Source: Candidatus Parcubacteria bacterium
GTDB lineage: Bacteria; Patescibacteriota; Patescibacteriia; PEXW01
Length of the DNA stretch: 44,879 bases
Reading direction: 5' to 3'
Assembly (NCBI GenBank): GCA_003597955.1
Contig: QZJU01000021.1
Coordinates: forward strand, 1-44,879
Of this stretch, positions 2,222 through 14,246 are shown piece after piece (within the stretch, counting starts at the first letter, position 1; each line of letters opens with the position of its first letter). The notes beneath the pieces were generated by a model. That model did no database searches. It saw only the letters and a list, made by a program, of their open reading frames with translations, and was not told where the DNA came from. The position numbers and the translations under genes are program-made.

Positions 2222-2562
2222 ACTTGGCACCGGCCTACTCTCCCCCTGAAGGAGTACCATCAGCACTGACTGGCTTCCCGCCAGAGGCGGGTCCGCCTAT
2301 GTCGGAAACTTCTGAGTTCGCCCCGCACCATGAAAAAATTAAGCGTATAATACCTGGCACCGGCCTACTCTCCCCCTGAAGGAGTACCATCAGCACTGAC
2401 TGGCTTAACTTCTGAGTTCGGGATGGGATCAGGTGTGGCCCAGTCGTTTGGGGCACCAGGAATTATATTCTCAATTTTCAGGTGCGGGGCAAGGGATGCG
2501 GTCCCGCACTCGCACTGCGTAGTGCGGGAGGATCAGGTGTGGCCCAGTCGTTTGGGGCACCG
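2222..2562 (-). pseudogene. Second 5S rRNA copy, split by insertions (fragments 2222-2276, 2307-2320 and 2530-2562)
   Basis: Fragments are near-identical in sequence and order to the intact 5S at 2353-2460; interrupted by a 30-nt hairpin insert (2277-2306) and a 209-nt insert (2321-2529) that contains the intact 5S. Confidence 0.7.
2353..2460 (-). rRNA. rrf: 5S ribosomal RNA (intact copy)
   Basis: Minus strand CCTGGTGCCCCAAACGACTGGGCCACACCTGATCCCATCCCGAACTCAGAAGTTAAGCCAGTC...GGGGGAGAGTAGGCCGGTGCCAGG; the ends pair to form the terminal stem. Confidence 0.85.
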
Positions 2563-2839: not shown

Positions 2840-6214
<3,375 letters not shown>

Positions 6215-14134: not shown

Positions 14135-14246
14135 GTCAACCCCGCACCACTTTCCATTAAAAACACCCTTTAAATATGGGGGTATTTACAATAAACGAAC
14201 ATCTTTAGTAAAAAGCAAATCTAATTTGGAAAGTGGTGCGGGGTCA
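14135..14246. repeat. Inverted-repeat element copy C
   Basis: GTCAACCCCGCACCACTTTCC...GGAAAGTGGTGCGGGGTCAA. Confidence 0.75.

Follow-up and report, generated by a model that had tools for sequence, protein, structure and literature searches.

A complete 5S rRNA gene inside a split 5S rRNA gene, and the nesting of 5S rRNA and tRNA genes within their own copies in Patescibacteriia

Essential RNA genes present as a single copy are generally taken to be inherited vertically and to withstand little disruption. Integrative elements insert in tRNA genes and restore the end of the gene, bacterial group I introns of tRNA genes occupy tRNA loops, and the Rickettsia palindromic elements are small palindromes that invade genes and RNA genes. 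Archaeal tRNA introns are likewise inserted in tRNA loops, often the anticodon loop (PMC4090602). Bacterial and archaeal 5S rRNAs carry expansion segments, including those at loop C positions 34-37 and in Halococcus morrhuae (PMC7812874, PMC7530397), and a tRNA-Sec gene has been found nested in a protein gene (PMC8124441). REPINs, which are paired inverted REPs, are mobilised by RAYT/TnpA-REP Y1 transposases (PMC3116915, PMC8266576).

We analysed a stretch of 44,879 nucleotides from a Candidatus Parcubacteria bacterium (contig QZJU01000021.1; the whole stretch is referred to as the window), in which an intact 5S rRNA gene, carried as the loop of a hairpin cassette, lies within a second, split 5S rRNA gene. 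The literature searched, the coverage of which was partial and is not proof of novelty, contained no case of an RNA gene lying within a split copy of the same gene, and the findings point to a mode of replacement of essential RNA genes that has not been described.

The dispersed elements of the window's own genome (G000) resemble REPINs in being hairpin-forming and in having inverted palindromic arms ~100 nt apart, and Y1_Tnp genes occur in the same genome, but the arms differ between brackets, and several genomes in which genes are nested gave no Y1 match. To our knowledge, no REPIN has been reported to have a tRNA or 5S gene as cargo or a cognate RNA gene as insertion site. Like 5S expansion segments, the inserts include hairpin modules in 5S loops, loop C among them, and one genome (G057) resembles such a case; expansion segments, however, add non-coding helices to one functional 5S, whereas here the insert is a complete second 5S and the outer host erodes in relatives. 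The position of inserts within tRNA loops, in many cases that of the anticodon, recalls tRNA introns, but here a complete tRNA of matching identity forms the cargo, and joining the flanks mostly fails to give a recognisable tRNA; no splicing or self-splicing signals were seen, and the Rfam search gave no intron family match at the 5S locus. As with integrative elements, insertion into an essential RNA gene would be survivable where the element supplies the lost sequence, but the cassettes have no integrase, measure ~100-170 nt, sit in internal loops and supply a complete gene. Rickettsia palindromic elements invade RNA genes likewise, but without RNA-gene cargo.

The nested 5S rRNA locus

The window holds the following features, with the supporting method in brackets.

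2844-6210, minus: 23S rRNA gene (Rfam RF02541, 2486 bits)
2566-2574, minus: 5' arm of the outer flanking stem, ACTCTATAC on the plus strand (MFE fold)
2530-2562, minus: 5' piece of the outer 5S, helix I to the 5' side of loop C (sequence reading, blastn)
2499-2529, minus: hairpin insert 1 in loop C, TCCCGCACT...AGTGCGGGA (sequence reading)
2493-2498, minus: loop C leftover CATCCC of the outer 5S (sequence reading; G003 equivalent GCATTCCTTGCCCCGCACC)
2321-2489, minus: hairpin cassette with arms, long AT-rich stem and the inner 5S as loop (sequence reading, fold)
2481-2489, minus: cassette arm GGTGCGGGG
2352-2460, minus: inner intact 5S rRNA gene (Rfam RF00001)
2321-2329, minus: cassette arm CCCCGCACC
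2307-2320, minus: middle piece of the outer 5S, CGAACTCAGAAGTT (sequence reading, blastn)
2277-2306, minus: hairpin insert 2 in loop B at GTT^AAG (sequence reading)
2222-2276, minus: 3' piece of the outer 5S (blastn to the inner copy)
2213-2221, minus: 3' arm of the outer flanking stem, GTATAGAGT on the plus strand (MFE fold)
2060-2164, no strand: REPIN-like palindromic element with CCCCGCACCACTTTCC arms, adjoining the locus (arm and element search)
978-1084, no strand: second REPIN-like element (arm and element search)
14139-14244, no strand: third REPIN-like element (arm and element search)

The 23S gene lies upstream of the 5S locus on the same strand and is followed, 5' to 3', by the flanking stem, the outer 5' piece (2562-2530), the ~31-nt hairpin, CATCCC (2498-2493) and three bases, then by the cassette (2489-2321), the 14-nt piece (2320-2307), the second hairpin insert (2306-2277), the 3' piece (2276-2222) and the closing stem arm. 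The inner gene gave a full-length RF00001 match (model positions 1-120, 83.9 bits, E 4e-17; cut-off for a 5S call, 38 bits), the only 5S match of the Rfam search in the 0.99-Mb assembly, and it is presumably the expressed, live copy. Base-by-base reading, Rfam and blastn uphold the coordinates of the first-pass annotation, which had reported an intact minus-strand 5S inside a split one. The outer pieces are, as it had also reported, near-identical to the inner gene: joined, they share 98.1% identity with it over 107 aligned nt, and by blastn the 3' piece matches at 100% over 51 nt, the middle piece at 14/14 and the 5' piece plus loop C at 93%. Three inserts, of ~31 nt, 169 nt and 30 nt, interrupt the outer 5S. 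The 30-nt insert (2277-2306), a double hairpin, stands as first described, but the insert previously given as 209 nt (2321-2529) contains an additional scrap of the outer gene, CATCCC (2493-2498), which separates the TCCCGCACT hairpin (2502-2529) from the cassette.

The cassette occupies the hairpin loop (loop C) of the outer 5S. Its bracket continues as a long imperfect stem closing on helix I of the inner 5S, with a predicted fold of -68.9 kcal/mol (z -5.1) for 2321-2489, and the region 2205-2590 likewise folds far more stably than shuffled sequence (z -5.84). The outer 5S retains its own 9-bp flanking stem (2213-2221 with 2566-2574), and the terminal pairs of its helix I are lost to mispairs. 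At class 5S loci L032-L060 a complementary stem flanks many ordinary 5S genes and looks like a processing stem habitual in the class. The 23S gene of the window, 3367 nt long, has several segments beyond the bacterial model, and group I intron matches were found in the 23S genes of relatives (L050, L075, L076).

The CCCCGCACC core is also the core of a dispersed palindromic family with 36 plus and 33 minus arms genome-wide, against 0 in the genome for a reversed-pattern control. This agrees with the initial observation that the inner gene is bracketed by the core of the dispersed element, and chance is excluded; the cassette arms share the CCCCGCACC/GGTGCGGGG core with the family, the adjoining ACTTTCC not being shared. 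The dispersed CCCCGCACCACTTTCC elements in G000 are 99-109 nt long and have inverted arms and many copies, as REPINs do. Three Y1_Tnp matches were found in G000, one ~1.3 kb from an element and none seen near the other two. Among 20 genomes examined, Y1 transposase matches were present in G000 and 15 others, and no Y1/RAYT gene turned up in G120, G137, G192 or G035, the first three of which have a nested 5S. No clear target-site duplications were seen.

5S rRNA loci in related genomes

A scan of GTDB contigs gave a single match, G003, which is an independent assembly of another genus of the same family (contig JAUYFT010000026.1). Its order is 23S, a 5S 5' piece, a hairpin, GCATTCCTTGCCCCGCACC, the 5' half of a second 5S with the same 30-nt insert at GTT^AAG as in the window, and a third 5S, which is intact; 27 nt beyond this gene the contig stops, within CGCTGATGG, itself a match to 5S sequence. 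Two junctions, including GCATYCCTTGCCCCGCACC, are common to the window and G003, as is insert 2, and because the junctions are shared the interrupted 5S is older than the split of the two genera. Gene conversion or later re-copying is needed, since the inner and outer copies are near-identical though the interruption predates this split. The 5S copies within each genome carry lineage-specific letters (CCTGA..TCAG vs CCCGA..TCGG), which points to homogenisation between the copies of one genome. Weak 5S-like matches in G001 and G002 were rejected as chance.

We then surveyed 138 loci around 5S matches in the class, comparing every intact 5S with the sequence on either side of it. At ~15 of the 138 loci, in several families, the intact gene has pieces of another 5S around it on the same strand, and ~9 are clear nests (families f1, f17, f33, f65, f67 and f73). 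A 5S bracketed by CCCCGCACC/GGTGCGGGG in loop C, as in the window, was found in G114 (f65) and G185 (f73) (loci L177, L121). Hairpins in outer copies recur at loop sites, namely TTCC^CATCC in loop C and GTT^AAG in loop B, with further recurrent sites in the loop E region (GCCGA^TGATAC and AAGT^AGG). The site of insert 1 holds unrelated hairpins in seven genomes (G003, G041, G086, G192, G137, G149, G120) and in the sole 5S candidate of G057, and that of insert 2 a homologous insert in G003 and similar ones in G086, G153 and G192. The G057 candidate (L076 1420-1600), below the Rfam cut-off, bears a 64-nt hairpin in loop C and is otherwise complete, so loop-C hairpins are probably tolerable in a working 5S; loop C positions 34-37 are a known permissive insertion site (PMC7812874). 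A decorated 3' piece of another 5S copy lies ~300 nt downstream of this candidate. Genomes with no 5S match mostly have no 23S contigs either, and the absence of 5S in them is therefore mostly an assembly gap.

Comparison of orthologous loci in close relatives, which had been put forward as a check on the locus, yielded undivided empty sites in G035 and G157. G035 and G072 belong to one genus, and the undivided 5S of G035 with its flanks aligns to the outer copy of G072 to either side of the nest (90.5% over 95 nt and 80.7% over 362 nt), whereas the inner 5S of G072 is different in helices I and II, where pairing is preserved (read by eye). Since the outer copy is orthologous to the single 5S of G035 and the inner copy differs, an additional 5S entered a gene that had been whole. 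Family f17 provides a series: G157 has one undivided 5S; in G137 and G192 an inner 5S breaks a related outer copy at GCCGA^TGATAC; G090 shares this inner type and retains the outer ends alone (TTTTTGGTGCTTCAAGC ... ATCGCCAAAAC); and G061 has the inner type alone. Judged from these sequences, the series is replacement from inside at four stages: empty, nested with a decorated outer copy, eroded and gone. Replacement of the outer by the inner copy is well supported. The occupied and empty sites (G072/G035 and G137 with G192/G157) lend partial support to the original suggestion that a 5S-carrying repeat had inserted into a resident 5S, and their existence in relatives makes the phenomenon testable. 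That nesting is class-wide and extends to tRNA genes lay beyond the reach of the first-pass annotation.

Nested tRNA genes

The bracket pattern CCCGCACC-N-GGTGCGGG was searched in 383 genomes of the class and matched in 54, with a tRNA inside many of the brackets. Twenty bracketed tRNAs were read, and most lie inside a same-strand split tRNA, mostly of the same amino acid, at the anticodon loop, D-loop or T-loop. Examples are nested tRNA-Thr(TGT) (L241) and tRNA-Trp (L196), tRNA-Ala(TGC) in a T-loop (L194) and tRNA-Pro(TGG) in a D-loop (L195). Some nests are multi-level, with Val(GAC) three deep at L248 (G194:C65) and Thr(TGT) several deep at L242 (G036:C17). Copies of tRNA-Cys are also nested at several levels (L243, G102:C14), and at all three of these loci each insertion is near or in the anticodon loop. 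In G000, a tRNA-Ala(TGC) lies inside an Ala(TGC) split as 1-35/36-76; the other nested tRNAs there are Tyr (the sole Tyr seen), Ala(GGC), Asp and Thr(TGT), and the bracket sequences differ. The tRNA cluster L263 (G000:C6) contains a row of tRNA-Val(GAC) genes, one intact and two decorated in the T-loop with nearly the same hairpin inserts.

We ranked each cassette's own tRNA against 53 others (54 in total) for its match to the cassette flanks. The own tRNA ranked first in 9 of 20 cassettes and among the top three in 15 of 20; the background of flank matches had a mean of 19.6 and a 99th percentile of 37. For 35 tRNAs of G000, strong arms versus cognate fragments gave only P 0.04 at a crude cut-off. 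With the cassette removed and the flanks joined, ARAGORN found a tRNA in 3/20 cases and in 3/60 controls, which is not clearly above control. Because the joined flanks mostly form no intact tRNA, the outer tRNA copies look dead.

Proposed mechanism and competing explanations

We regard it as probable that hairpin cassettes with RNA genes insert into loops of the cognate genes and take over while the outer copy decays, and, with the same degree of confidence, that the outer 5S of the window is a superseded relic of the live inner gene, the best explanation of the locus as a whole. A hairpin cassette with a complete 5S in its loop would have inserted into loop C of an older 5S, an event that would be survivable because a functional copy of the disrupted gene came with the cassette. 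The cell would have come to depend on the cassette copy, and the broken outer copy would then have gathered further hairpin inserts and decayed. The bracketing stem would serve RNA processing. Insertion may have occurred by hairpin or single-strand transposition of the REPIN/RAYT type, perhaps guided by homology to the cognate gene, the RNA gene being an occasional cargo of transposing hairpins. Single-strand hairpin transposition of RNA-gene cargo is suggested by the REPIN-like elements together with the Y1 matches, one of them ~1.3 kb away. One arm-specific transposase does not explain all cases, because Y1 was not found in G120, G137 and G192 and arm sequences differ between cassettes. Nearly all inserts, with cargo or none, are hairpins located in the loops of genes for structured RNAs. 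A preference for loops may arise because a single-copy gene would be lost by insertion at other positions or because single-stranded loops are targeted. More tentatively, and with somewhat less than even confidence, the cassettes could form a new class of miniature mobile elements, stable-RNA (5S and tRNA) hairpins that target, disrupt and replace their cognate genes by insertion and rescue and can be stacked (tRNA-Thr, tRNA-Val).

The main rival, which we consider rather unlikely, is homology-facilitated illegitimate recombination without dedicated machinery, in which DNA bearing the same RNA gene pairs with the resident copy and is joined by microhomology in one of its loops, with brackets acquired or selected at a later time for their role in RNA processing. 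It explains the near-constant cognate identity of the nested gene, the variation of the arms and the missing Y1 match in some nested genomes, but leaves unexplained why a CCCCGCACC bracket is common to the 5S and many tRNA cassettes across families and why all inserts are hairpins, with or without cargo. Survival bias would add to either mechanism, a gene-breaking cassette being kept only if it supplies the same gene. That the outer RNA is still functional, the inner one being cut from a precursor and the outer pieces paired or spliced so that each locus gives two RNAs, is improbable. The outer 5S helices are well kept, most inserts lie in loops, and the G057 candidate and the tolerated loop C site (PMC7812874) fit such a reading; however, the outer helix I pairs are lost in the window, parts of the outer 5S are missing in G003, G041 and G086, the outer copy of f17 erodes and then vanishes, relatives that lack it and show no other 5S change being seen there, and cassette removal rarely restores a tRNA.

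Descent from three tandem copies by duplication and deletion, the first without its 3' end and the last without its 5' end, has very little probability. Locus L100 does look tandem, with its downstream flank repeated, and L112 and L172 have one-sided fragments, but at nested loci the two outer parts add up, to within a few nt, to one gene broken at a single loop, and G035 and G157, in which the gene is undivided and its flanks are homologous, contradict this origin for the nested loci. A simple tandem 5S array is accordingly unsupported as a general account. An assembly artefact, once held to be a real alternative and compatible with the fragmented assembly (21 contigs), can be dismissed with near certainty: the junctions are shared with the independently assembled genus G003, and the same architecture recurs in independent assemblies of many families and in different RNA genes.

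Under the favoured reading of cassette insertion and takeover, 5S and tRNA genes appear to be broken and replaced from inside by their own copies, repeatedly and in many lineages. This bears on the evolution of both gene types in reduced genomes, undermines annotation and 5S- or tRNA-based comparison in this class and suggests an undescribed hairpin-based mobility process. If true, a natural insert-and-rescue process, a counterpart to engineered systems of disruption and rescue, renews the essential RNA genes of the class time and again. Among the palindromic elements themselves, the cluster at L202 5520-5760 (G000:C16) has a truncated copy head-to-tail with a complete one and adjoins a 17-nt 5S-like match; the 17-nt 5S match at G000:C16:8327, beside a palindromic element, is probably due to chance.
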